Assembly: GCF_900110875.1 (NCBI RefSeq)
Contig: NZ_FOFM01000003.1
Location: 124,001-188,000, forward strand
Origin: Pseudovibrio axinellae
Lineage (GTDB): Bacteria; Pseudomonadota; Alphaproteobacteria; Rhizobiales; Stappiaceae
Length of the DNA stretch: 64,000 bases
Reading direction: 5' to 3'
The stretch's first letter is position 1; every line of letters starts with the position of its first letter. The notes beneath the pieces were generated by a model. That model was not told where the DNA came from. It searched no databases and saw nothing but the letters and a program-made list of their open reading frames with translations. Below are positions 5,650 through 47,835 of the stretch, in pieces. The translations under genes and the position numbers were made by a program.

Positions 5650-7551
5650 TTACCCAATCACACCATCATCATCACGCTTGATGACGATGACAGAGGATCG
5701 TGGCAGCTTGCCGCCGTCGGGCCAGTTGCCGCCTGGGTGCTGAATACCAACAAACATGCTGCGGCGATCTGCGGACCATGTCAGGCCAGTAACCTCACAA
5801 CCGTTGGGCCCCGTCATGAAGCGTGCGATCTCGCCGCTTACAGGATCGCCGACTAACATCTGGTTGTTGCCCATGCCAGCAAAGTCACCCTCATTACTGT
5901 CATTGCCGTCTGTTTGGATCCATACAAGACCGTTTTCATCAAATGCCATACCATCCGGTGAGTTGAACATATTGCCAGCATGAATGTTGTCGGACCCGGC
6001 ATTTGGACCATCGTGAACGGTTGGGTTGCCAGCCATCACATAAAGGTCCCAGTCAAACGTATCTGAGGCATGGTCCTCATTGTGCGGACGCCATCGTACG
6101 ATCTGTCCGTAATTGTTCGTCTCACGTGGATTCGGGCCATTTACCGAGGTGTCATCACCGCCTGCGTTTGGCTTTACACCACGGTTTTTGTTGTTGGTCA
6201 GACAACAATAAGCCTCTACTTCATTCGGATTTGTAGAAATCCATTCAGGGCGATCCATGGTGGTCGCGCCAACAGCAGAACCTGCTAAGCGGCTGAAGAT
6301 CAAGATTTCAGCTGCGTCCATGCCAGTGCTCTGCGGTGTCAGTGGCAACCACTCACCCGTCAGATCATCATTAAATTTGGCGACGTAAAGTATACCATCA
6401 TCCAATAGGCCATCGGTTGACTGACCCGGAGTGTAAACCCCGTTGGAGACAAAGCGGTACATGAACTCACCGCGCTCATCATCGCCCATGTAAACAACGA
6501 CACGGCGGTCAGGTGCCAGAACAGCCTCCGCATTCTCGTGTTTAAAGCGCCCCAGAGCCGTGTGCTTTACAGGAGTGGAGGTTGGGTCAGTTGGGTCAAT
6601 TTCCACAATCCAGCCCATACGGTGTGGCTCATTTGGATTCTTGGCAGTATCGAAACGCTCATCGAACTTGTGGTACTCGTAGCCCCACCCATCCTTGCTG
6701 AGGCCGTAGCGCTTGTAACCCGCATCAACGCCGTCAAGACGAGCGACAGGTGCAGCGTCCGTCTCTCCAAAGTAGCCGTTAAAGTTCTCTTCACAGGTTA
6801 GGTAAGTGCCCCACGGGGTCTTGCCTGATCCGCAATTGTTGAATGTGCCGAGCGATTGAACGCCAGCTGGATCAGCAGCTGTTTGCATCAACGGGTGGCC
6901 AACAGCAGGGCCTGCCAGTTTCATAGGTGTATTGTGTGTGATACGGCGATTAAAGCGGCTGCCTTTGACGATCTGCCAACCGTTTTCGCTGTCTTCTACC
7001 TCAATAACGGAAGCGCCCTGTAAGTTTTGCAACTTCAGAACGTCCTCAGCGCTTTTTGGTATACCCTCTTCATTTAGAGGGAGGTTGAGCTTGCGAGTTG
7101 CAAATTCGTGGTTGATCGCGAGCAATTGCTTGCCCTGATACACGAAATTTTCCATGCCATCCGTGTTCTCACCAAACACCTTGTCAGAGCTTGCAGCAGA
7201 ACCACCGGTTTCGTCGTTGAATGCCTCGGCGCCCTCGATTAAGGGGTCGCCCCAACTGGTAAGAATTTTCCAGTTGTAACCTTCTGGTACATGCACGGTG
7301 GAATCGGTGTGTGTTGGAATAGGCGTAAAAGCAAAGCGGGAAACAGAAGCTTTTGCCTCAGAAGCAGTGAGCCCCAAAATACCTGTACCCATTACCGCCG
7401 CGCCAGAACCAAATGCAAGTGCCCCCCCAAGGAAGCCGCGACGTGAAATTGCACGCTCAACCACACGGTCAAATTCATTTTCTTCTGCCCGTGGGAAGTT
7501 TTGTTCATCCCATTCGTCTGCAGAAAGTTCATTAAGAATAGTATTCGACAT
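5650..7551 (-). CDS. PhoX-type alkaline phosphatase (DUF839), Tat-exported
   Basis: The protein (633 residues) has a twin-arginine signal near residues 40-75 (SRRGFLGG followed by a hydrophobic Ala/Gly stretch and an AKA-type cleavage site). This matches PhoX, whose metal cofactor requires folding in the cytoplasm before Tat export. The mature part carries typical DUF839/PhoX segments: FNNCGSGKTPWGTYLTCEEN, KHENAEAV, VYMGDDERGE and DGPDG-like DGMAFDENGLVWIQTDG. PhoX enzymes are Ca/Fe phosphatases that release phosphate from organic esters. The start at 7551 is preferred; an ORF extending to 7623 adds residues with no similarity to signal peptides. Confidence 0.88.
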   Translation of the reverse strand: MSNTILNELSADEWDEQNFPRAEENEFDRVVERAISRRGFLGGALAFGSGAAVMGTGILGLTASEAKASVSRFAFTPIPTHTDSTVHVPEGYNWKILTSWGDPLIEGAEAFNDETGGSAASSDKVFGENTDGMENFVYQGKQLLAINHEFATRKLNLPLNEEGIPKSAEDVLKLQNLQGASVIEVEDSENGWQIVKGSRFNRRITHNTPMKLAGPAVGHPLMQTAADPAGVQSLGTFNNCGSGKTPWGTYLTCEENFNGYFGETDAAPVARLDGVDAGYKRYGLSKDGWGYEYHKFDERFDTAKNPNEPHRMGWIVEIDPTDPTSTPVKHTALGRFKHENAEAVLAPDRRVVVYMGDDERGEFMYRFVSNGVYTPGQSTDGLLDDGILYVAKFNDDLTGEWLPLTPQSTGMDAAEILIFSRLAGSAVGATTMDRPEWISTNPNEVEAYCCLTNNKNRGVKPNAGGDDTSVNGPNPRETNNYGQIVRWRPHNEDHASDTFDWDLYVMAGNPTVHDGPNAGSDNIHAGNMFNSPDGMAFDENGLVWIQTDGNDSNEGDFAGMGNNQMLVGDPVSGEIARFMTGPNGCEVTGLTWSADRRSMFVGIQHPGGNWPDGGKLPRSSVIVIKRDDDGVIG

Positions 7552-7950
7552 TGATAATATCCCGTACATGAAAGTTGCTATATCAATATGGTGCCAACAT
7601 GACAATTTTACGAGACCATTCACATCGTTAAATACTGCATAAATGATATAACCGTAGTTTTCATATTATGGGGTGGTGTATCCAAAAATATCTTCTGAGC
7701 ATCTCACACAACCTAAGGCTATGTATTTCTTGGCTTATAAGATATTTTGCTGTCTTTGGTCCGATGATTTATTTAAAATACAACTTTACTATTACTATCG
7801 TATAGGATGACGGGATTCGTCGATGAGAAATACAGTGTATTGGCACCCGGAGGGTTAATTCCTATTGCAAATCTGGGCGCTACACCCAGGCACCTTAAAG
7901 GAGTTCGATCAGCGTATCTCAGGCCTGTGAAACCTGCGTAAAACTCACCA
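7552..7950. other. intergenic region with no convincing gene
   Basis: This 399-bp AT-rich stretch separates the phoX-like gene from the acetyltransferase gene. It holds a 63-codon minus-strand frame at 7773-7964 with no recognisable features and no good ribosome-binding site. The phoX promoter should lie in its left part; a single Pho-box-like half site (ATGACAA at 7599) is not enough to call PhoB control. Confidence 0.5.
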
Positions 7951-8367
7951 TCACGCTGGCTCAATTACCTTTTGCAGGCAAATGGATTGAGTGTCTTTGT
8001 AGCCTTGTGCCTTATAGAAGTCGGTCGCTTGTGCGTTGTCTCCTCGTACAAGCAATTGGACCTTCCAGATACCGCGTGCGCGTAACCATTCCTCAGCTGC
8101 TTGCGTGATGGATTTGCCAAGACCTTTGCCCTGATGGTCAGGATGTGTGCTTACATAATAGAACCACCCGCGATGACCATCTTCGCCGCACATGATGCTG
8201 GCCACAATTGCACCCTCCAGCTCACCAATCAGTATAGTGGAGTGTTCTCCTTCCAGCGCTTTCTTAATATCTCGGACCGGCTCATTCCACTTACGAAAGA
8301 CCCCGGTGGCCTTCCAAAGGGCGATAACCGCATCTTGCTCGGACAAACACATTTCGCGACAAATCAT
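7951..8367 (-). CDS. GNAT-family N-acetyltransferase
   Basis: The 138-residue product is a single-domain GNAT enzyme. It has the acetyl-CoA loop HPDHQGKGLGKSI (Q/R-x-x-G-x-G/A type) and the late strand-helix segment ATDFYKAQGYKD. It resembles the small YpeA-type acetyltransferases found with an aspartate-rich start. The frame is open to 8532, but the ATG at 8367 has a GGAG site 10 bases upstream and gives the usual family length. The substrate is unknown. Confidence 0.8.
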   Translation of the reverse strand: MICREMCLSEQDAVIALWKATGVFRKWNEPVRDIKKALEGEHSTILIGELEGAIVASIMCGEDGHRGWFYYVSTHPDHQGKGLGKSITQAAEEWLRARGIWKVQLLVRGDNAQATDFYKAQGYKDTQSICLQKVIEPA

Positions 8368-8530
8368 ATGCGCTCCGCATAGTAGTTCAAAAATAGAGAG
8401 ATAATCACAGGATATTTTCAGATTAATCTTTCTAATACAGTGAGTTGCAGATTCAAATAAGAATAATGACAGGGTTAATAGTCTATAAGTAAAACTATGA
8501 AAGCCTTTGCGCGATTGAGAGGTTTTTAAC

Positions 8531-10006
8531 ATGGCTTTTTTTAAGCGTAACGCACAAATTCTTGTTGAAGCTGCCGCAAATGATCAAGGGGAAGTAATTG
8601 ATCAGTCATCTGAAGCGGAGTTCGTAGAGCATAACAAATCGATTGATAGCACACGTTTGTTTGGCGAATTGGATGTACTTGCTTTGGAAATGGCATCAGC
8701 TGCGGGAGAGCTGGAGGCGGTTAACAACACTGCAAGTGCGCTTAAAACGGCTATGGAGAGCCTACAGGATGCGTCGGGACGGGTAGTAGAAAGCAATCGG
8801 AACGTCAGTGAAGCTGTTGTGCAAACCACCGAGCAGACATCCAGTGCGCGTGACACGATGACCAGCTCACAAGAAGTGGTGCAAGGCGCAATCATCAGTA
8901 TCAATAGCCTGTCGGCAACGATTAGCAATATCAACCGTAACCTGGAAGGCCTTCAGGCGTCGTTTGCTAATGTCCGCCAGTTTTCCAGCTCCATTGATGC
9001 CATCGCGCGCCAAACCAACCTGCTGGCGCTCAACGCCACGATTGAAGCCGCCCGCGCAGGCGAAGCAGGCAAGGGGTTTGCGGTGGTGGCAAGTGAGGTG
9101 AAAGCACTTGCGACACAAACCAGTGTGGCAACCGAGCAGATTGACCAGACGATCTTACAACTCGGCAAAGAAGCTGACACGCTCGTTGATTTGGGCAAGG
9201 GAGCACTGGATACGGTGGCCACTGCTGAAACTGGCACACAGTCGATCAATGACCTGTTTCAGAAATTGGGAACGATGGTAGATGCCATTTCCACCAATAC
9301 AGATGCAATCCGAGCCGCCTGCACTAACAATGATGCTGACACGGAAGAGCTGCTTCAAAACCGTGATCAGGTTATGGGAATCGTGACAACAAATGCTGAG
9401 AGCATTGAGCAGGTGTCGGGGCAGATGCTTCAAACATCTCAAACTGCAGATGCATTTCTGGCAGAGGTTGCCGTGGAGCATGGCGATAATCTCAACCAGC
9501 AGATGATAGATTACGTCAAGGTGGCTGCGGATAAAGCCATAGATGCCTTTGAGGCCGAAGTTGACGCAGGACGGATATCTCTGCAAGAGCTCTTCGATTT
9601 CAACTATGCTCCAATCGAAGGCTCAAACCCCGAACAGTTCATGACGTCCTTCACGCAAATGGCAGACCGTGTATTGCCAGCGATTCAAGAGCCGGTCATA
9701 GAACTTGATTCCCATATCATATTCTGCGCTGCCTTGGATAAGAATGCCTACCTGCCAACGCATAGCAAAGAATACTCCAAGCCACAGGGCAACGATCCGG
9801 TTTGGAATGCTGCAAACTGCAGAAACCGCAGGATGTTTAACGACCGAGCCGGCTTGAATGCCAGCAAAAACACAAAGGAATACAGCCTGCAAACCTATCG
9901 CCGGGATATGGGGGGCGGAAAAGTGATGATGATCAAGCTGGTGTCCGCACCAATTTGGGTTCAAGGCAATCACTGGGGTAACACGCTCATTGCTTTTAAT
10001 GCCTGA
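8531..10006 (+). CDS. soluble methyl-accepting chemotaxis protein
   Basis: This 491-residue chemoreceptor has no membrane segment or signal peptide, so it should act in the cytoplasm. Residues 50-330 are coiled coil with the conserved hairpin tip near residues 156-190 ([22 protein letters not shown]), which contacts CheA and CheW. The C-terminal 170 residues form a separate globular domain rich in conserved Cys, Trp and Asn (NCRRN-like [22 protein letters not shown]). I take this to be a sensory domain found in alphaproteobacterial soluble receptors. GAGAGG upstream supports the start. No other chemotaxis gene is nearby. Confidence 0.9.
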
Positions 10007-38185: not shown

Positions 38186-38590
38186 ATGAGCGCATTTGAC
38201 AAACTTTTCCAAGAAGCAAAGGCGGCCCGAGAGACCGCCTATGCACCATACTCCAACTTCCAGGTGGGCGCAGCTTTGCTCACCTCCGATGGCAAAGTTG
38301 TCTCCGGGTGTAACGTCGAAAATGGCGCTTTCCCAGAAGGCACTTGTGCTGAGGGTGGGGCAATCGCGGCGATGGTTCGCGCTGGCTCTACGAAAATCGA
38401 TGAGGTTGTTGTTTTGGCAGATGCGGCACTGTGCACACCATGCGGTGGGTGTCGTCAAAAACTTTCTGAGTTTGCAAGCAACAGGCAGATCAAAATCCAT
38501 GTGGCCAACCTTGAAGGTCTGCGCAGAACCTTCACCATGGAAGAGTTGCTGCCTGCGGGTTTTGAACTAAACGAACAGATTGAGGATTGA
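38186..38590 (+). CDS. cdd: cytidine deaminase
   Basis: The 134-residue protein is a homotetrameric-type cytidine deaminase. It has YAPYSNFQVGAAL, the zinc and catalytic loop GCNVENGAFPEGTCAEGGAI (Cys plus Glu), and the second zinc motif PCGGCRQ. It converts cytidine and deoxycytidine to uridine and deoxyuridine, supplying deoA and the uracil route. It overlaps or nearly touches its neighbours (11 and 2 bp), so it is in the same operon. Confidence 0.95.
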   Translation: MSAFDKLFQEAKAARETAYAPYSNFQVGAALLTSDGKVVSGCNVENGAFPEGTCAEGGAIAAMVRAGSTKIDEVVVLADAALCTPCGGCRQKLSEFASNRQIKIHVANLEGLRRTFTMEELLPAGFELNEQIED

Positions 38591-38592
38591 TT

Positions 38593-39399
38593 ATGAGCGG
38601 ATTTGGTAAGGAATCAGCGGATATTGTACGCGCTGCTCGCCCGGGTGATTACAAAGTAGGTATGATCCTCGGCTCTGGTCTGGGCTCTCTGGCGACAGAA
38701 GTCGAAGATGCTGTCCGTGTTCCATATAGTCACCTCACTGGGTTCCCAGTTTCATCTGTAACAGCACACGCAAGTGAACTTGTTGCAGGCACGCTGGAAG
38801 GTGTTCCGGTTATTATTCTATCTGGTCGCGCGCACTATTATGAGAGCGGCAACCCTTCCATCATGCGTACCCCGCTTGAGACCCTTAAAGAGCTTGGCTG
38901 CGAAACGATTGTAGCCACGAATGCAGCCGGTTCTTTGCGTGTGCATATCAAACCGGGCTCTCCAATGCTCATCAATGACCACATCAACTGGTCAGGACTG
39001 AACCCGCTTATTGGCGAAGAAGACGAGAGTCGTTTCCTCGATCTTTCCTCCGCCTATGATGCTGACCTCAGAGAGCAGCTCAAAAATGCAGCGACTGAGG
39101 TTGGCGAAGACCTCGAAGAGGGCGTTTACATGTGGTTCTCCGGTCCGTCTTTCGAGACACCGGCAGAAATTCGCATGTCTCAGGTGCTTGGTGCTGATGC
39201 CGTTGGCATGTCAACTGTGCCAGAAGTGATACTCGCCCGTTTTCTGGGTATGCGTGTTGCAGCAATCTCCACCATCACCAATATGGGAGCTGGCCTTCAG
39301 GCGCATGGCCTCTCTCACGATGAAACCAAGGAAATGGCCCCGCTCGGAGCGGCCAAGATCAAAAAGATTTTGCGTGCCTTCCTCAAAAATATGGCTTGA
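38593..39399 (+). CDS. purine nucleoside phosphorylase (trimeric type)
   Basis: The 268-residue enzyme has the PNP-I features GSGLGSLATEV, the TGFPVSSVTAHA segment, RAHYYES, ATNAAGSL, and the base-binding FETPAEIRMSQVLGADAVGMSTVPEVI. It splits inosine, guanosine and their deoxy forms with phosphate to base plus (deoxy)ribose-1-phosphate. The start at 38593 follows GAGG and lies 2 bp after cdd. Product use by deoB and deoC follows directly in the operon. Confidence 0.93.
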   Translation: MSGFGKESADIVRAARPGDYKVGMILGSGLGSLATEVEDAVRVPYSHLTGFPVSSVTAHASELVAGTLEGVPVIILSGRAHYYESGNPSIMRTPLETLKELGCETIVATNAAGSLRVHIKPGSPMLINDHINWSGLNPLIGEEDESRFLDLSSAYDADLREQLKNAATEVGEDLEEGVYMWFSGPSFETPAEIRMSQVLGADAVGMSTVPEVILARFLGMRVAAISTITNMGAGLQAHGLSHDETKEMAPLGAAKIKKILRAFLKNMA

Positions 39400-39413: not shown

Positions 39414-40193
39414 ATGACCGAAGCATCGATAAAAGAAACAGCAAAGCGTGCACTAGGGCTCATCGATCTGACGAACCTGAATGATGACTGCACCCAAGAA
39501 GATGTGACAGCGTTGATTGAACGCTCGTCAACACCTTACGGTCACACAGCAGCCATTTGCATTTGGCCTCGCTTTATTAAGCATGCGGCTGAACTGCTGA
39601 AGAACTCTCCTGTTCGTATTGCAACAGTGGTGAATTTTCCGGCAGGTGGTGAAGATACAGCTGCAGTTATCGCAGAAACCAAGCAAGCTCTCGAAGACGG
39701 AGCGGACGAGATTGATCTTGTGATGCCATACCGCGCATTCGCAGCAGGTCGTCGTGGTTTCGCAGAAGACCAGATCAAACAGGTACGCGCAGTAATTTCT
39801 GCTCCTGCTCAGTTGAAGGTTATTCTTGAAACTGGCGAGTTGGAAGATCCTCGCTTGATCCATATGGCTTCAGAGGTTGCAATCGCGCAGGGTGCGGACT
39901 TCATCAAAACCTCTACCGGTAAGGTGAAAGTCAATGCAACGCTGGAAGCTGCTGAGATCATGCTGAGCGTTCTGAGCGAAACCTCTAAAGAAGATCATCG
40001 CACTGTCGGCTTTAAGCCAGCAGGTGGTGTGCGTTCATTGGATGACGCAGCTGCTTACCTCAAGCTTGCTGACGAGCTGATGGGTGAAAACTGGGTATCT
40101 TCCTCTACCTTCCGTTTCGGTGCGAGTGGCTTGCTCGACGCTGTACTGGCTGGAATTGAAGACCGCGAAAACAACACAAAAGAGACCTACTGA
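39414..40193 (+). CDS. deoC: deoxyribose-phosphate aldolase
   Basis: The 259-residue enzyme cleaves deoxyribose-5-phosphate to acetaldehyde and glyceraldehyde-3-phosphate. It has the TIM-barrel motifs [19 protein letters not shown] and the Schiff-base lysine motif FIKTSTGKV; the end shows [11 protein letters not shown]. The start at 39414 is chosen because an AAGGA site lies 11 bases upstream and the family starts here. It nearly overlaps deoA (stop TGA at 40191, deoA ATG at 40195). Confidence 0.95.
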
Positions 40194-40194
40194 T

Positions 40195-41511
40195 ATGCTT
40201 CCTCAAGAAATCGTTCGTAAGAAACGTGAAGGTGAAGTCCTGACAGCTGAAGAAATTCAGTTCTTTGTAAAAGGCATCACTGACAATAGTGTAACTGAAG
40301 GGCAGGTTGCTGCTCTGGCAATGGCTGTGTTCTTTAAAGGTCTCAGCGTTGATGAGCGTGTTGCTCTTACACTTGGCATGCGCGATAGCGGTGATGTTCT
40401 CGACTGGTCTGGTATCGATGCCCCAATCGTCGACAAGCACTCAACGGGTGGTGTTGGCGACAACGTTTCCCTGATGCTTGCCCCAGCTCTTGCAGCCAAT
40501 GGTGCAGCAGTTCCAATGATCTCCGGTCGCGGCCTTGGTCACACCGGTGGCACTTTGGACAAGCTGGAAACCATCCCTGGTTACACTGCAAAGCCATCCA
40601 ACGAGCTGTTCAACAAAGTTGTAAAAGAAGTTGGTTGTGCAATCATCGGTCAAACTGGTGATCTTGCTCCAGCTGACAAGCGCTTTTACGGTATTCGTGA
40701 TGTGACGGCGACTGTTGAGAGTATTGATCTCATCACTGCATCCATCCTGTCCAAGAAGCTGGCAGCTGGCCTTGAAACTCTGGTACTCGACGTTAAGTGG
40801 GGCACCGGTGCATTCATGGCGAACTACGAAGATGCAAAAGCTCTTGCAGAAAGCCTTGTTCTTGTTGCAAACGGTGCTGGTCTTAAAACCACTGCATTGC
40901 TGACAGACATGAACGAGTCCCTTGCATCAGCAGCTGGTAACGCGATTGAAGTTCAAAACGCAGTGGACTTCCTGAAGGGTACTCACATCGACAACCGCCT
41001 TTGGGACGTAACAGTTGCAATCGGTGCCGAAGGTCTCGCCACTTCAGGTCTTGCAGACTCCGTTGATGACGGTAAGAAGAAGATGGAAGACGCTTTCACC
41101 TCCGGTAAAGCTGCTGAAATCTTTGGCAAGATGGTTGGCGAACTTGGCGGCCCTAACGACTTTATGGAAAAGCCAGAAGCTTACCTTGCAAAAGCTCCGA
41201 TCCAGCGCCCTGTATATGCTGAAGAAGCATCTCTGGTGGCTGGTGTTGACGCACGTGCAGTTGGCTTGGCTGTGGTTGAACTTGGTGGTGGCCGTCGTGC
41301 GGCAGCCGACGAAATTGATCCAGCTGTTGGTCTGACTGATATCGCGGGTGTTGGTACATCCGTTGATAGCGAAACACCAATTGCCATCATTCATGCTCAT
41401 ACGGAAGACCAGGTAGAGCGCGCAGAAAAAGTTCTGCGTGATGCTTACACCTTCGGTTCTGCTGGCGACGTAAAAGAGTTTGCCACTGTCCGTGACCGTG
41501 TTGCGCCATAA
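40195..41511 (+). CDS. deoA: thymidine phosphorylase
   Basis: The 438-residue enzyme has the pyrimidine nucleoside phosphorylase signature: [34 protein letters not shown] and [11 protein letters not shown]. It splits thymidine and deoxyuridine to the base and deoxyribose-1-phosphate. It begins one base after the deoC stop region, so the two are translated together. The uracil and thymine products may feed the upp and URC4 route further on. Confidence 0.96.
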
Positions 41512-41615: not shown

Positions 41616-42836
41616 ATGCCACGCGCAATTTTGTGTGTACTCGACAGCTTTGGTATCGGCGCTGCTGATGATGCTGAAAAGTTCGGCGATGTCGGATCCG
41701 ACACGCTCGGTCATATCGCCGATGCCTGTGCTGAAGGTAAAGCTGACAAAGAAGGACTGCGTAAGGGTCCGTTGTCTTTGCCAAATATGGACCGTCTCGG
41801 TTTGGGAGCTGCTGCACGTGCCTCCACTGGTAAGCCTGTTAAAGGCTTGGATTTCAGTGGGACTCCAGAAGCAAACTGGGGCTACGCACAGGAAGTTTCT
41901 AACGGCAAAGATACCCCATCTGGCCATTGGGAAATTGCGGGCGTACCGGTCACTTTTGATTGGGGCTACTTCCCAGATACCAACCCAAGTTTCCCTGCTG
42001 AGTTGATTGAAAAGATCATCGAAGTTGGTGAGCTTCCTGGCGTTTTATGCCTGACCCATGGGTCTGGTACAGTTGTCATCGAAGAGTTTGGCGACGAGCA
42101 TGTCAAATCTGGCAAGCCAATTGTCTACACGTCCGCTGACAGCGTTCTCCAGATTGCAGCACATGAAGAAAGCTTCGGTCTTGAGCGCCTTCTCGATCTC
42201 TGTGTGAAATGCCGCACACTTGTTGATGAGTACAACATTGGCCGCGTGATCGCACGCCCATTTGTTGGCTCTGTTCAAGACGGTTTTGAGCGCACTGCTA
42301 ACCGTCGTGACTACTCAGTTCTTCCTCCAGCTCCAACTGTTTTGGATCGTTTGGAAGGCGCTGGTCGTCAGGTGATCGGTGTTGGTAAGATCTCTGACAT
42401 TTACGCTGCTCAGGGTGTAACGAAGGTCATGAAGGGTGCAGGCAACGACCAGTTGTTCGACCGCACGCTGGAAGCAATGGATATGGCGAAGGACGGAGAC
42501 CTCGTGTTCTCTAACTTCGTTGATTTCGATATGCTGTTCGGTCACCGCCGCGACGTTCCAGGTTATGCCGCTGCGCTTGAGCACTTTGACAAGCGCTTGC
42601 CAGAAATGATCGAAAAGATGAATGATGGCGACCTGCTTATTCTCACGGCCGACCATGGTTGTGACCCAACCTGGAAAGGCACAGATCACACCCGTGAACA
42701 CGTGCCTGTAATTGCTCTCGTAAAAGGGCAGTCGGGCAAAGATCTCGGCAGACGGTCAACTTTTGCTGATATGGGCGAGACAATTGCCGCGTTCCTTTCA
42801 GTGCCTACAGGTGAAAACGGAAAGAGTTTTCTGTAG
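41616..42836 (+). CDS. deoB: phosphopentomutase
   Basis: The 406-residue enzyme converts ribose- and deoxyribose-1-phosphate to the 5-phosphates. It has the alkaline-phosphatase-superfamily metal site ([14 protein letters not shown]), [11 protein letters not shown] with the phosphorylated Thr/Ser region, [14 protein letters not shown] and TADHGCDPT near the end. The AAGGAAACG region upstream supports the start. It finishes the deo pathway in this operon. Confidence 0.96.
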
Positions 42837-42983: not shown

Positions 42984-43859
42984 ATGCAGGCACGAAAGTT
43001 TACTGCGCAACAAGACGGCAGCTTGACTTCAGAGATGAAACAAGCGTTTGAAGAGGACGGTTTCCTTATACTGGAAGGGTTCGCAACCCCAGACGAATGC
43101 GATGAGCTACAGGCTCAGATGCATGACCTAATTGACGAGTTTGATCCTTCTTCTGTTGCCTCTGTTTTTGAGACCAACGCTCAAGCACATGCAAGAGATG
43201 CTTACTTCCGCGAAAGCGGCGACAAGATTCGCTTCTTCTTTGAAGCCGAAGCCTTTGATGAAAAGGGCAATCTCAAAAAAGAAAAGCATCAGGCACTCAA
43301 TAAGGTCGGTCACGCGCTACATGATCTTGACCCTGTGTTTAAGAAATTCTCTCGCTCAGAAAAAATGGAACGATTAGCAAAAGACCTGGGATTTGTAGAT
43401 CCGCTTCTGGCGCAGTCTATGTATATCTTCAAACCACCACATATTGGTGGTGAAGTGAACAACCATCAGGATTCGACATTTCTCCACACTGCGCCGTTGT
43501 CCTGCACAGGCTTCTGGTTCGCATTGGAAGACGCTGATGAGACCAATGGCGGTCTTTATGGCGTTCCTGGTGGCCACAAAGGTCAATTGCGCAAACGTTT
43601 CCATTATAATGGCGAAGCACTGGTCATGGAAACACTAGACGAAACCCCGCTCGAAAAATCTGCAGATGATGCAGCACCCCTTGTCGCTCCGAAAGGAACC
43701 CTCGTCATCCTTCATGGATTGGTGCCGCACAAATCTGCTCCAAACCGCTCTGATAAATCCCGTCATGCCTATGCAGTGCATATGGTAGATGGAACCGCAA
43801 AGTGGTCGGATGATAACTGGATTGTTCGAGCTAAAGATAAGCCAATGCACGGATTTTAA
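42984..43859 (+). CDS. PhyH-family 2-oxoglutarate/Fe(II) dioxygenase
   Basis: The 291-residue protein has the double-stranded beta-helix oxygenase site: His161 and Asp163 in H-Q-D-S-T, distal His249 in VPHKSAPN and a 2-oxoglutarate-binding Arg near 255-260. It resembles the phytanoyl-CoA dioxygenase and PHYHD1 subgroup. The ATG 42984 with AGGGGAAA is preferred to an ORF start 60 bases upstream. It ends 3 bp before add. An oxygenase located here could act on a nucleoside or base (fungal thymidine 2'-hydroxylase and thymine-7-hydroxylase use the same chemistry), but the substrate is unknown. Confidence 0.85.
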   Translation: MQARKFTAQQDGSLTSEMKQAFEEDGFLILEGFATPDECDELQAQMHDLIDEFDPSSVASVFETNAQAHARDAYFRESGDKIRFFFEAEAFDEKGNLKKEKHQALNKVGHALHDLDPVFKKFSRSEKMERLAKDLGFVDPLLAQSMYIFKPPHIGGEVNNHQDSTFLHTAPLSCTGFWFALEDADETNGGLYGVPGGHKGQLRKRFHYNGEALVMETLDETPLEKSADDAAPLVAPKGTLVILHGLVPHKSAPNRSDKSRHAYAVHMVDGTAKWSDDNWIVRAKDKPMHGF

Positions 43860-43862
43860 GAC

Positions 43863-44864
43863 ATGAGACCAAAGCAGAACGTGGTGCCACGCGCCGAACT
43901 GCACTGCCATATCGAAGGTGCTGCACCTCCAACGCTCGTAAGAAAGCTGGCAGAGCGCTATGATGTCGACCTTGGTGATCTGTTCGACACCAATGGAAAC
44001 TACAGCTGGCACGACTTCACCACCTTTATTCAGCAGTACGATGTTGCAGCGTCCCTGTTTCGCCGCCCTGGCGATTACGCAGAACTTGCTGAAACCTATT
44101 ACAAGATGCTGGCCGCTGAGGGCGTGATCTATGCAGAGGTCTTTATCTCTCCAGACCACGCAGTCAAAGCAGGTCTCAGCTACAATTCCTACCTTGAAGG
44201 GCTTGTTGCTGGATTAGAACGCGCAAAAGCCGACACTGGTATTGAAGGTCGCCTGGTTCCACTGGGCGTCCGTCATGAAGGTGCTGAATCTGTGGAAGCT
44301 GCGATCAAGGAAGTCATCGACAATCCTCACCCAATGGTAACCGGGTTTGGTCTTGCTGGTGATGAGCGTATCGGACCTGCCAAAAACTTCGAGAAAGCCT
44401 TTGCTATGGCTGGTGAAGCTGGTTTGGGCCTGACGGCACACGCAGGTGAATTTGGTGGTGCTCAAAGCGTCAAAGATGCGCTTGATTACCTCAAGATCAC
44501 ACGTGTTGGCCATGGTGTCCGCGCTGTAGAAGATGAAGCGCTTGTTCAGCGTCTGGTGGAAGAAAAAATTACACTGGAGGTTTGCCCGCATTCAAACATT
44601 GCGCTTGGTGTCTATTCGAACCTGCGGTTCCACCCAGTGAATATGCTGCGTCAGGCCGGTGTTCGTATCACTTTGAACTCCGATGATCCGCCATTCTTCC
44701 GCACGACACTTGGTCATGAGTATGTCGAGACCTCTCGTGTGTTCGGCTGGACCAGAGACATTCAGAAATCGATCACGAAAAATGCACTGGAAGCAGCGTT
44801 CGTGGACGAGGCGACCCGAGCAGTTCTTCTGGAACGTTTGGAAGCATTAACTGAAGACGCGTAA
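43863..44864 (+). CDS. add: adenosine deaminase
   Basis: The 333-residue zinc enzyme has H14-C-H16-I-E-G at the start, HAGEFGG with the catalytic Glu and His, and NSDDPPFF with the zinc Asp. It converts adenosine and deoxyadenosine to (deoxy)inosine, which the purine phosphorylase of this cluster can cleave. It begins 3 bp after the dioxygenase gene. A strong terminator follows, closing the main operon. Confidence 0.94.
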   Translation: MRPKQNVVPRAELHCHIEGAAPPTLVRKLAERYDVDLGDLFDTNGNYSWHDFTTFIQQYDVAASLFRRPGDYAELAETYYKMLAAEGVIYAEVFISPDHAVKAGLSYNSYLEGLVAGLERAKADTGIEGRLVPLGVRHEGAESVEAAIKEVIDNPHPMVTGFGLAGDERIGPAKNFEKAFAMAGEAGLGLTAHAGEFGGAQSVKDALDYLKITRVGHGVRAVEDEALVQRLVEEKITLEVCPHSNIALGVYSNLRFHPVNMLRQAGVRITLNSDDPPFFRTTLGHEYVETSRVFGWTRDIQKSITKNALEAAFVDEATRAVLLERLEALTEDA

Positions 44865-44950
44865 ATTTCCGCTGGATTTGAATGTGCATAAGCAGGAAAA
44901 CGAGCATACTCGGATTTCTTATGCCCAAAACCTCAGAGCGTAGATTGCAA

Positions 44951-44989
44951 AAAGCCCGTACCTGAATAAATAGGGTACGGGCTTTAAAT
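44951..44989 (+). terminator. intrinsic terminator after add
   Basis: GCCCGTACC and GGTACGGGC form a perfect 9-bp stem with a loop of 11 bases, flanked by AAA and TTTAAATTT, about 90 bases after the add stop. Confidence 0.85.
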
Positions 44990-45021
44990 TTGTGAGCTCC
45001 TCCAATAAATATAAGTGAGGT

Positions 45022-45050
45022 GGGAAGACCCGCAAACGCGAGCTCTTCCC
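45022..45050 (+). promoter_or_regulatory. stem-loop in the URC4 leader
   Basis: GGGAAGA and TCTTCCC are perfect 7-bp arms with a small inner CGC/GCG pairing. It lies 36 bases before the URC4 start, so it could control translation. Confidence 0.4.
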
Positions 45051-45085
45051 GTGCTTCATCAACGTAACAACAGAAAGCAATAAAG

Positions 45086-46321
45086 ATGGAGATGCAGACA
45101 TCGCAGGCTTTGTCCTTGCTCAATGCAAAAGCGGTGCGTGAACGCGCAAATCAGCTTTTGGAACTGGGCTTGCAGGGCGAACTTGAGCATTTTGCGGTCG
45201 ATCTGTCTCATCTGGCGCAGGCTGCCCGCAGAACGCTTGCCGCGACCGACAATGCATACCCTGACCGGCAGATTCCGTTTCATGCACGTTGGCGCCATTT
45301 TGAGGCTGGTGGAGTAGATCGTTGGTCAATGCTGGCAGGCGCACGCCGCTTTTCCGATGTGCAGGGCATGGGCCGAGCCGCCTTTGATCTGGCAATCGTC
45401 TCTGCATTACTGGATGCCGCAGCTGGCAACCACTGGCACTATCGCGAAGCAATCACGGGCGAGACTTATATGCATTCCGACGGTCTCGCTGTTGGGTCGC
45501 TCTCCATGTTTTCAGCAGGCTTCTTTTCAGATGATCCGCTAGACCCACTCAGAGCAGACGCGATCACGTTGTTTAGGTTGGATGAAGATGAACTGGCTGA
45601 AGGTTTACAGGTTGCAGGAAAGAACCAGCTTATCGGCTTGAATGGGCGTTTAGCGCTGTTAAACAGCTTGGGGCAGGCCACGTCGTTACGGCCTGATCTT
45701 TTTTCAAAAGAAGAAGAACCCCGCCCCGGTGGTCTCTTTGATGTCCTTTATGACGAAGGGCAGCAAGGACCACTTCCGGCTGAACGCATTTTGGAAGTGG
45801 TGCTGGATGGTCTTGGACCGATCTGGCCCAACCGTGAGCAGATTGATGGAGTAATTTTGGGGGATACCTGGCGGCACTCCAAAATAGTCACGCAGGATAA
45901 AACAAATAATCTGGTTCCGTTCCACAAACTCTCCCAATGGATCGCTTACTCTCTTGTCGAACCGCTCTCATGGGCAGGTGTCGAGATAGAGGACATTGAT
46001 GGATTGACGGGACTGGCTGGACATCGCAACGGTGGTTTGTTCATGGATACGGGCGTTCTGCGCCTTAAGAACCCAGAACAGGCCTTAATCCGACACGAGG
46101 TCAGCAGCGAGCTGGTTGTTGAGTGGAGAGCGTTAACAATCGCTCTTCTCGACAAGCTCGCAGATTGGATTCGAACAGATTTGTCGGTCTCCAGAGACCA
46201 GTTGCCACTGGCATGCGTGCTGGAAGGCGGGTCTTGGGCCGCAGGACGACAAATTGCCCTTGAAAAACGCGGTGATGGTTCTCCGCCTCTGATGATTATC
46301 AGTGATGGAACCGTTTTTTGA
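45086..46321 (+). CDS. URC4/urg3-family protein (DUF1688)
   Basis: The 411-residue protein matches the URC4/urg3 family. Recognisable parts are RWRHFEAGGVDRW, RAAFDLAIVSALLDAAAG, YREAITGETYMHSDGLAVGSLSMF, FDVLYDEGQQG, LGDTWRH and the end with LPLACVLEGGSWAAGR. URC4 is required for uracil catabolism in the yeast Lachancea kluyveri but its chemistry is unknown. A second ATG lies 6 bases downstream with GGAG ahead of it. It is followed by upp after 125 bp, the same pairing of URC4 with UPRT that marks the URC pathway. Confidence 0.87.
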   Translation: MEMQTSQALSLLNAKAVRERANQLLELGLQGELEHFAVDLSHLAQAARRTLAATDNAYPDRQIPFHARWRHFEAGGVDRWSMLAGARRFSDVQGMGRAAFDLAIVSALLDAAAGNHWHYREAITGETYMHSDGLAVGSLSMFSAGFFSDDPLDPLRADAITLFRLDEDELAEGLQVAGKNQLIGLNGRLALLNSLGQATSLRPDLFSKEEEPRPGGLFDVLYDEGQQGPLPAERILEVVLDGLGPIWPNREQIDGVILGDTWRHSKIVTQDKTNNLVPFHKLSQWIAYSLVEPLSWAGVEIEDIDGLTGLAGHRNGGLFMDTGVLRLKNPEQALIRHEVSSELVVEWRALTIALLDKLADWIRTDLSVSRDQLPLACVLEGGSWAAGRQIALEKRGDGSPPLMIISDGTVF

Positions 46322-46446
46322 GCTATAACATCTAGCGAATTGCACCATTGATACTCAACGGTGCCTTACTGAAAATATGCCCTGCTCATGCTGGCAGGTG
46401 TCAGACAACACATGAATACCCGCTTGGGTTTAATAAGAGGAACATG

Positions 46447-47076
46447 ATGTCCGGAGCAACAGTAATCGACCACCCGCTTGTGCAGCACAAACTGACACAC
46501 ATGCGGAGAAAAACAACTCCGACGCAGGATTTCCGTCGTTTGCTTCGCGAGATTTCTTTGTTGCTTTGCTACGAAGTTACTCGTGACCTGAAAATGACCA
46601 GCCAGACGATCGAGACGCCAGTTGCAGAAATGGATGCACCTGTTCTCGCTGGTAAAAAACTCTGCTTTGCATCTATCCTGCGTGCTGGTAACGGCTTGCT
46701 GGAAGGTATGCTTGAGCTGATCCCATCTGCGCGCGTTGCTCACATCGGTCTGTACCGTGACCCTGAGACCCTGGAAGCTGTTGAATACTACTTCAAAGCG
46801 CCTCAGGAGCTGGATGAGCGTCTGGTGATCGTTGTTGATCCAATGCTTGCGACAGCAAACTCCGCGATTTCTGCGGTTGAGCGCCTTAAAAAGCGCGGTG
46901 CTAAGAACATGGTGTTCGTTTGTTTGCTTGCTGCGCCAGAAGGCGTTAAACGCTTTAACGAAGAGCACCCAGATGTGCCAATCTATACAGCGTCCATCGA
47001 TGAGAAGCTGAATGAGAAAGGCTACATCATTCCAGGTCTGGGTGATGCCGGTGACCGGATGTACGGCACAAAATAA
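46447..47076 (+). CDS. upp: uracil phosphoribosyltransferase (URC-type, altered PRPP loop)
   Basis: The 209-residue protein is clearly Upp: [11 protein letters not shown] at the start, [13 protein letters not shown], and the uracil-binding end [17 protein letters not shown]. It forms UMP from uracil and PRPP. The PRPP loop reads [10 protein letters not shown], whereas normal bacterial Upp has DPMLATGGS; this affects the pyrophosphate contact and suggests a specialised branch. The second of two adjacent ATG codons (46447) has the better spacing from AGAGG. Another upp may exist elsewhere in the genome. Confidence 0.9.
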
Positions 47077-47090
47077 ACTTTTTGTTTTGA

Positions 47091-47123
47091 AGCGTCAGGC
47101 AATATGTCTGGCGCTTTCTTTTT
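47091..47123 (+). terminator. intrinsic terminator after upp
   Basis: AGCGTCAG and CTGGCGCT pair with one G-T, around a 9-base loop, followed by a T-rich run (TTCTTTTT). It makes continued transcription into the TrpF-like gene at best partial. Confidence 0.75.
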
Positions 47124-47172
47124 AAGTGCACTTAGTTTTTCTCAGATGACGATCGCGCAGGGGGAAAATGGA

Positions 47173-47835
47173 ATGCCAACCAACGCACGTACTCGTTTGA
47201 AGATCTGTTGTATCTCAACGTCCAGCGAAGCTGCATTAGCCGTCGCTTGTGGCGCAGATGCTGTTGGGCTTGTTGCACACATGCCCTCAGGACCCGGTGT
47301 GATAGAAGACGATCTTATTCTCAATATCGCACGTCATGTGCCTCCTCCTGTCTCAACCTGGCTTTTAACCTCCCGAACCTCGGCAAATGACATTGTCGAA
47401 CATGCTTTGACATGTGGGACAAACACGCTGCAAATCGTGAGCCCGATTGACCCAGGAGAATATCAGGAACTCCGTCTCAATCTTCCAGCCAGCACGCGCA
47501 TTGTGCAGGTTGTCCATGTTGAAGATGAATACTCGCTTGAAATTGCTCAGGAATATAGCGGTGTTGCTGATGCGGTTTTGTTGGATTCCGGCAGTCCCTC
47601 CCAAAATGAACTTGGCGGGACAGGGCGAACCCACAATTGGGATTTAAGCCGCCACATCGTCAACAAACTGGATATTCCAGTATTTCTGGCTGGCGGATTG
47701 ACCCCGCAAAATGTCATCGAAGCCATCGAGCTTGTAAGGCCCTACGGCGTAGATGTGTGTACGGGTGTACGGGTGGATGGCCGTTTAAATCGAACAAAGC
47801 TATCTGAATTTGCAGCCGCAATTGCGTGCACCTGA
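47173..47835 (+). CDS. TrpF-like phosphoribosyl isomerase homologue, non-trp context
   Basis: The 220-residue protein is a TIM-barrel phosphoribosylanthranilate isomerase homologue. The general base Cys12 (KIC, TrpF Cys7) and general acid Asp138 (LLDS, TrpF Asp126) are kept, as are GGTGRTHNWDLS and LAGGLTPQNV for the phosphate. The TrpF KSPR-type motif whose Arg contacts the anthranilate carboxylate is replaced by PSGPG (Pro41), and QLHG is replaced by QIVS. No trp gene is near. An N-phosphoribosyl substrate without anthranilate is likely, for example phosphoribosylurea. The start follows GGGGAAA. Confidence 0.8.
   Translation: MPTNARTRLKICCISTSSEAALAVACGADAVGLVAHMPSGPGVIEDDLILNIARHVPPPVSTWLLTSRTSANDIVEHALTCGTNTLQIVSPIDPGEYQELRLNLPASTRIVQVVHVEDEYSLEIAQEYSGVADAVLLDSGSPSQNELGGTGRTHNWDLSRHIVNKLDIPVFLAGGLTPQNVIEAIELVRPYGVDVCTGVRVDGRLNRTKLSEFAAAIACT

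Follow-up and report, generated by a model that had tools for sequence, protein, structure and literature searches.

A 64,000-nucleotide stretch of the 5.13-Mb Pseudovibrio axinellae genome (contig NZ_FOFM01000003.1, positions 124,001 to 188,000; hereafter the window) carries, downstream of a nucleoside-catabolism operon, a gene for URC4 (DUF1688) of the uracil-catabolism (URC) pathway, upp for uracil phosphoribosyltransferase (UPRT), and a trpF-related gene whose product we call TrpFL. We hold with moderate confidence that this stretch is composite, with a URC remnant that lacks URC1 beside a probable isomerase of nucleoside catabolism, TrpFL. TrpFL is a distinct, uncharacterised subfamily derived from TrpF. 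Judging by sequence, its most likely role is to isomerise an N-phosphoribosyl compound produced when nucleosides are degraded.

The window protein exceeds the Pfam cut-off for phosphoribosylanthranilate isomerase (PRAI)/TrpF (Table 1) and reaches the cut-off of none of the NCBIfam TrpF models listed (at best 120.6 bits vs 215). Scanning genomes for TrpFL returned at least 80 loci, some of which, at about 30% identity, are not TrpFL; among the matches listed, the closest relatives belong to named Pseudovibrio species (58–88% identical). The 46 aligned members extend down to 45% identity with the window protein, and the subfamily occurs in Alpha- and Gammaproteobacteria, Bacteroidota, Acidobacteriota, Gemmatimonadota, Planctomycetota, Cyanobacteriota, and others, with one version in Niabella drilacis. 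The tree, from which the short matches L067, L257, and L271 were left out, splits TrpFL from canonical TrpF at 100/100 support; the depth of this split is approximate, as just three canonical rows, on long branches, are included. AlphaFold2 modeled TrpFL with a predicted local distance difference test score (pLDDT) of 90.6, and the best solved folds for this model, ranks 1–10, are PRAI (TMq 0.84 for 1nsj).

Comparison of the 46 members with 13 canonical alphaproteobacterial TrpF sequences agreed with the sequence-only reading, which had described a TrpF homologue with an altered active site. In Thermotoga maritima TrpF, Cys7 and Asp126 are, we assume, the catalytic residues, and Arg36 and His83 presumably line the anthranilate side of the pocket. 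The catalytic pair is kept in all 46 TrpFL sequences (Cys12 and Asp138). The equivalents of the other two are Arg and His in 13/13 canonical sequences, and in 46/46 TrpFL sequences they are Gly42 and one of Val, Cys, or Trp, respectively. Gly8 to Cys13, Ser180 to Cys196, Glu184 to Arg200, and Phe139 to His154 are further changes found in every member, and His115 is invariant in TrpFL at a position that varies in canonical TrpF. The canonical rows were picked partly by the motif K-[IV]-C-G, so their Lys, Cys, and following Gly are fixed by choice; T. maritima TrpF has the same three residues. Candidates from three genomes (G275, G834, and G040; 155–184 bits) were rejected as TrpFL since most of this residue signature is missing; the 17 kb fetched for G040 include pnp, deoC, deoA, and add. 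One TrpFL gene (L238) lies in an IMG/VR viral contig, possibly in host DNA. In a literature search, whose coverage left out most subscription literature, we recognised no description of the TrpFL branch or its nucleoside link.

The shared fold and catalytic Cys and Asp would also suit a second, redundant PRAI, and eight of 50 TrpFL genomes outside Pseudovibrio (these represent 50 of the 55 loci L013–L067) have a single PRAI match. Those eight are seven metagenome-assembled genomes (MAGs) and one fragmented draft (Sandarakinorhabdus), and at least two PRAI matches were found in the other 42. In the window's genome, a canonical trpF (158.8 bits) adjoins a gene read as trpB. Together with the replacement of the Arg36 and His83 equivalents throughout the subfamily, this makes redundancy very unlikely. 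TrpFL is not a replacement for TrpF and mostly coexists with it.

BLAST clustering of the neighbors of TrpFL at 64 loci revealed no partner common beyond close relatives outside Pseudovibrio; the link between TrpFL and nucleoside catabolism emerged only once more alphaproteobacterial genomes were included. Twelve genomes of an enlarged class sample (385 genomes, covering most of an earlier sample of 289) have TrpFL proper, a count that excludes the three rejected candidates. In six of these, from six families, TrpFL lies directly beside add, deoB, or upp. Its direct nucleoside-gene neighbor in the window's genome is upp, and G131 (L063/L169) has TrpFL beside a divergent upp. The remaining four have the gene orders cdd-pnp-deoC-ALDH-deoA-add-TrpFL (G160, L248; ALDH, aldehyde dehydrogenase), cdd-pnp-deoC-ALDH-deoA-deoB-TrpFL (G196, L163), cdd-pnp-deoA-deoB-phyH-add-TrpFL (G803, L249), and add-TrpFL with deoB, deoC, and ALDH nearby (G202, L247). 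Genes in these loci were named by tblastn with the window proteins, and some by family scans. Outside the count, an uncultured genome (L028) also has add-TrpFL, and TrpFL of G761 is near a Bmp transporter gene (PF02608). As controls we used 20 canonical TrpF loci of the class, of which ten come from genomes with TrpFL or a TrpFL-like gene, and no nucleoside gene turned up in any of them within 8 kb or as far as the contig reached (Fisher test, 6/12 vs 0/20, p = 0.001; without the window 5/11, p = 0.003). The test used the window proteins as queries at E 1e-4, at which divergent genes may be missed, and contig ends cut some TrpFL and control loci. The order in G803 suggests that TrpFL originally lay directly 3' of add and that, in Pseudovibrio, the URC block separates the two. 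The ALDH is an aldehyde dehydrogenase-family protein of about 800 amino acids, whose gene separates deoC from deoA in both L248 and L163 and adjoins deoC in L247; the L248 protein (7007–9520, 837 amino acids) matches Pfam Aldedh in two stretches.

Several observations weigh against assigning TrpFL to nucleoside breakdown. Six of the twelve alphaproteobacterial genomes have no nucleoside linkage (in G001, G044, and G764 the contig ends nearby), and no adjacent nucleoside gene was found in 43 TrpFL loci outside the Alphaproteobacteria, several of which are short; the nearest are cdd in L023 and deoC in L037, each about 6.5 kb away. The tree gives no sign of many independent gains: the linked loci amount to four label changes, only two of which are forced by well-supported branches, and this would fit a single old association that was later lost in places as well as a small number of gains. 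A terminator-like hairpin parts TrpFL from upp in the window. The roles of T. maritima Cys7, Asp126, Arg36, and His83 are assumed, the isomerase reaction is predicted, and the added Cys and His residues of TrpFL could mean a different chemistry. TrpFL might instead have a general role, such as repair of a phosphoribosylated metabolite, and its nucleoside neighbors in some alphaproteobacteria would then be incidental. Consistent with this, the neighbors named by eye in other lineages are scattered: TrpFL is located between infB-like and rbfA-like genes in Robiginitomaculum (L057, L061, and L062), a few bases 3' of a chorismate mutase/prephenate dehydratase (pheA)-like gene in Lysobacterales MAGs (L017 and L018), and, in an acidobacterium, near a dapB-like gene. 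A general role, which we regard as unlikely, is opposed by the finding of TrpFL directly beside add, deoB, or upp in six families and in none of the controls.

The URC4-upp pair has a different origin and, as the sequence-only reading had proposed, is URC-derived. DUF1688 was found in 25 of the 289 genomes of the earlier class sample. The window's own locus and a fragment at a contig end (G025) aside, upp adjoins DUF1688 in all 23 other loci, and URC1 is located directly upstream of URC4 in 22 (21 by clustering, plus L158, which is cut by a contig end); the exception is L148, with no URC1 within the fetched stretch. URC1 is a GTP_CH_N plus GTP cyclohydrolase II protein (PF12471 and PF00925), identified on two examples. 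It is absent from the window, as that reading had noted, and a URC1 profile at E 1e-10 did not find it in the whole genome (G000) either, where the sole PF00925 gene found is a ribBA-like fusion, judged by eye. We detected no trace of URC1 in the add-URC4 interval (tblastn of URC1 against the window gave only matches at E of at least 0.49, none of them there).

Surveying DUF1688, URC1, and TrpFL in 61 relatives (16 of the genus, 21 of other genera of the family, and 24 of the order) placed this absence in context. All 16 Pseudovibrio genomes have DUF1688, with weak scores in G289 and G301, and four have URC1. The four URC1-bearing genomes, P. flavus and P. exalbescens among the species, share the order add-URC1-URC4-upp-TrpFL, with URC1 and URC4 matches that overlap or abut. 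In the other genera of the family, DUF1688 occurs in 13 genomes, and URC1 and TrpFL in none. Five genomes of the order have DUF1688, all with URC1, and TrpFL is present in one (G343, unlinked). A ribokinase-like gene is located 3' of upp or TrpFL in some relatives (PfkB in L214; by eye in L209 and L011) and was not seen there in L005 or the window.

The sequence-only reading had proposed that the three genes form a candidate module for uracil catabolism, with phosphoribosylurea as a possible substrate of the TrpF-like enzyme. URC4, upp, and TrpFL do occur together in 13 of 16 Pseudovibrio genomes, four of them with URC1, and also in G296, whose TrpFL is interrupted by contig ends. The substrates of TrpF and HisA carry an N-H next to the ribose, as do ribosylurea and ring-opened purine ribotides, so a phosphoribosylurea-type substrate is not chemically absurd. 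Among family genomes lacking URC1, URC4 is also best kept alongside TrpFL: 2–5 of 62 invariant residues are lost in ten such copies vs 5–39 in 13 copies without TrpFL, a comparison that covers one lineage and is confounded by descent. The wider survey did not bear out a working URC module with an additional TrpF-like step. URC1 was not found in the genome, and none of the 23 other alphaproteobacterial DUF1688 loci has a TrpFL gene (up to about 8 kb on each side). DUF1688 was not found in 47 of the 50 TrpFL genomes outside Pseudovibrio and is unlinked in the other three, being on another contig (G362 and G377) or about 1.9 Mb away (G397); no DUF1688 was near any TrpF-like locus examined outside the genus. 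Nine genomes of the 289-genome sample have TrpFL at 277 bits or more. DUF1688 accompanies it in three of these, namely the window's genome and two others in which the two genes lie on separate contigs. Without the window, the co-occurrence is not significant (2/8 vs 22/280, p = 0.14). Among the loci examined, TrpFL thus adjoins DUF1688 and upp as a set only in Pseudovibrio; elsewhere it is unlinked to URC4 throughout, and to upp except in L063/L169. Moreover, the passages on this pathway in a published account (PMC7530994) describe URC1 and URC6 as yielding ribosylurea and 3-hydroxypropionate in uncharacterised steps, and assign the conversion of ribosylurea to urea to URC4, which argues against a TrpF-like step on a ribosylurea-type compound. 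We therefore consider the phosphoribosylurea module to be highly improbable.

URC4 of the window is intact and evolves under purifying selection. The full-length frame is kept in all ten URC1-lacking Pseudovibrio genomes with a normally scoring URC4, among which median dN and dS (nonsynonymous and synonymous divergence, Nei-Gojobori) are 0.056 and 0.90. The corresponding values are 0.081 and 1.39 for TrpFL, 0.027 and 0.49 for deoA, and 0.016 and 0.57 for upp; selection on URC4 is thus much like that on TrpFL and deoA, and less strict than that on upp. We then considered 66 residues that are constant in 26 URC1-bearing relatives outside Pseudovibrio, leaving out the broken URC4 of G313 and G318 as well as L148 and L158. 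The window URC4 has lost six of them (V107A, G112A, E132D, A137G, E312G, and Y313H), its URC1-lacking sisters have lost 3–5, and URC1-bearing Pseudovibrio 1–2. URC4 of the window is 69–74% identical to that of the URC1-bearing species, which are 70–81% identical among themselves; the losses are therefore not merely a matter of distance. Decay of URC4 into a leftover without function, which would be compatible with the nucleoside-catabolism reading of TrpFL, is suggested by these six losses and by the URC1-lacking relatives without TrpFL, where 13 further full-length copies (two in the genus and 11 in other genera) account for the 5–39 losses given above and two more are broken (G313 and G318). 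The low ratio of dN to dS, the full-length frames in Pseudovibrio, and a frame of 388–424 amino acids kept in 13 of 15 other orphan copies stand against it, and we regard decay as possible, if somewhat improbable. Selection, the full frame, and the invariant-residue losses together indicate that the window URC4 is neither a plain pseudogene nor a normal URC4. Stappiaceae URC4 proteins without URC1 (L209, L210, L214–L219, and L224–L230) are mostly full-length and diverge fast at invariant residues. AlphaFold2 on nine Pseudovibrio URC4 sequences (71–88% identical to the window's) gave a pLDDT of 35.3, and we claim no fold; no solved structure related to DUF1688 was found by sequence, and URC4 was not found in scans of viral contigs.

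Taken together, URC4 and upp would be what remains of an alphaproteobacterial URC1-URC4-upp operon for uracil catabolism that, in this part of Pseudovibrio, lacks its first enzyme. With URC1 missing, the known URC route to opening uracil would be closed, and upp could still serve ordinary uracil salvage. Several residues of URC4 that are otherwise invariant alongside URC1 have been lost, so its role has probably been relaxed or altered despite selection. TrpFL would belong with the nucleoside-catabolism operon and not with URC. Its predicted phosphoribosyl-isomerase barrel, with the Cys/Asp catalytic pair and a different pocket, most likely carries out an Amadori isomerisation of the kind known from TrpF and HisA, on an N-(5-phosphoribosyl) compound that nucleoside breakdown yields and that is not phosphoribosylanthranilate. 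In a bolder and very improbable version, TrpFL would be a new isomerase of nucleoside catabolism that acts on N-(5-phosphoribosyl)-ureido or ring-opened (formamidopyrimidine-like) substrates; with a re-tuned URC4 and UPRT, it would provide URC1-independent clearing or salvage of ribosylated nitrogen compounds in URC1-lacking Pseudovibrio. TrpFL is a widespread and strongly conserved branch of TrpF with a fixed, different active-site signature, found repeatedly beside nucleoside genes in alphaproteobacteria. It narrows the substrates to test to a short list and could mark a step in nucleoside catabolism absent from current pathway charts. The family is also a natural experiment, in which URC4 after loss of URC1 may show which of its residues matter.

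The layout of the locus (Table 1) confirmed much of the sequence-only reading: URC4, upp, and the TrpF-like gene are intact, and family models support each gene of the upstream nucleoside-catabolism operon. Terminators had been proposed downstream of add and of upp, and we found hairpins at both sites. The sequence around the upp-side hairpin (47080–47135) folds with -18.8 kcal/mol. The add-side hairpin (about 44950–44986) has a loop too long for the hairpin scan and is supported by its folding energy instead (-24.1 kcal/mol for 44945–44998). We took the ATG at 47173 as the start of TrpFL, since the most upstream start in the open frame, 47104, falls within the terminator downstream of upp. 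The PhyH-family gene within the operon may act on modified nucleosides. A PhyH-family gene is also located just 5' of add in G803 (L249), which belongs to another family (53% identical), and in L217 and L218.

Table 1. Features of the P. axinellae window, in window positions.
Feature	Position	Strand	Evidence or remark
cdd, cytidine deaminase	38186..38590	+	TIGR01354, 139 bits, above cut-off
pnp, purine-nucleoside phosphorylase	38590..39399	+	TIGR01698, 319 bits, above cut-off
deoC, deoxyribose-phosphate aldolase	39414..40193	+	TIGR00126, 210 bits, above cut-off
deoA, thymidine phosphorylase	40174..41511	+	TIGR02643, 661 bits, above cut-off
deoB, phosphopentomutase	41616..42836	+	TIGR01696, 500 bits, above cut-off
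PhyH-family dioxygenase-like gene, within operon	42984..43859	+	PF05721, 147.9 bits
add, adenosine deaminase	43863..44864	+	TIGR01430, 329 bits, above cut-off
add-URC4 spacer	44865..45085		Site of URC1 in URC1-bearing Pseudovibrio (L204–L207, L009, L011)
URC4/DUF1688, intact	45086..46321	+	PF07958, 457.5 bits
upp, UPRT	46447..47076	+	UPRTase, 256.4 bits; TIGR01091, 272.6 bits, above cut-off
Intrinsic-terminator-like hairpin, between upp and TrpFL	47089..47117	+	13-pair stem, T-rich tail
TrpFL, TrpF-like gene	47173..47835	+	PF00697 PRAI, 69.9 bits (Pfam cut-off 22.7)

Three known systems can be compared with this stretch. Like the URC pathway of Lachancea kluyveri and the urg genes of fission yeast, the window has adjacent URC4/DUF1688 and UPRT genes, but its genome yielded no URC1, its URC4 is without several residues that are invariant in URC1-bearing relatives, and its TrpF-like gene is not part of other URC loci. 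TrpFL shares with TrpF (PF00697) the fold, the equivalents of Cys7 and Asp126, and the glycines, Asn, and Asp of the phosphate-side motifs. It differs in that the equivalents of Arg36, His83, Ser34, and Lys102 are replaced, in its new residues Cys13, His115, His154, Cys196, and Arg200, and in being encoded besides a canonical TrpF in the window's genome. As in bacterial deo/nucleoside-catabolism operons, cdd, pnp, deoC, deoA, deoB, and add form one run in the window; the differences are the PhyH-like gene before add and, in several alphaproteobacterial families, TrpFL behind the run.

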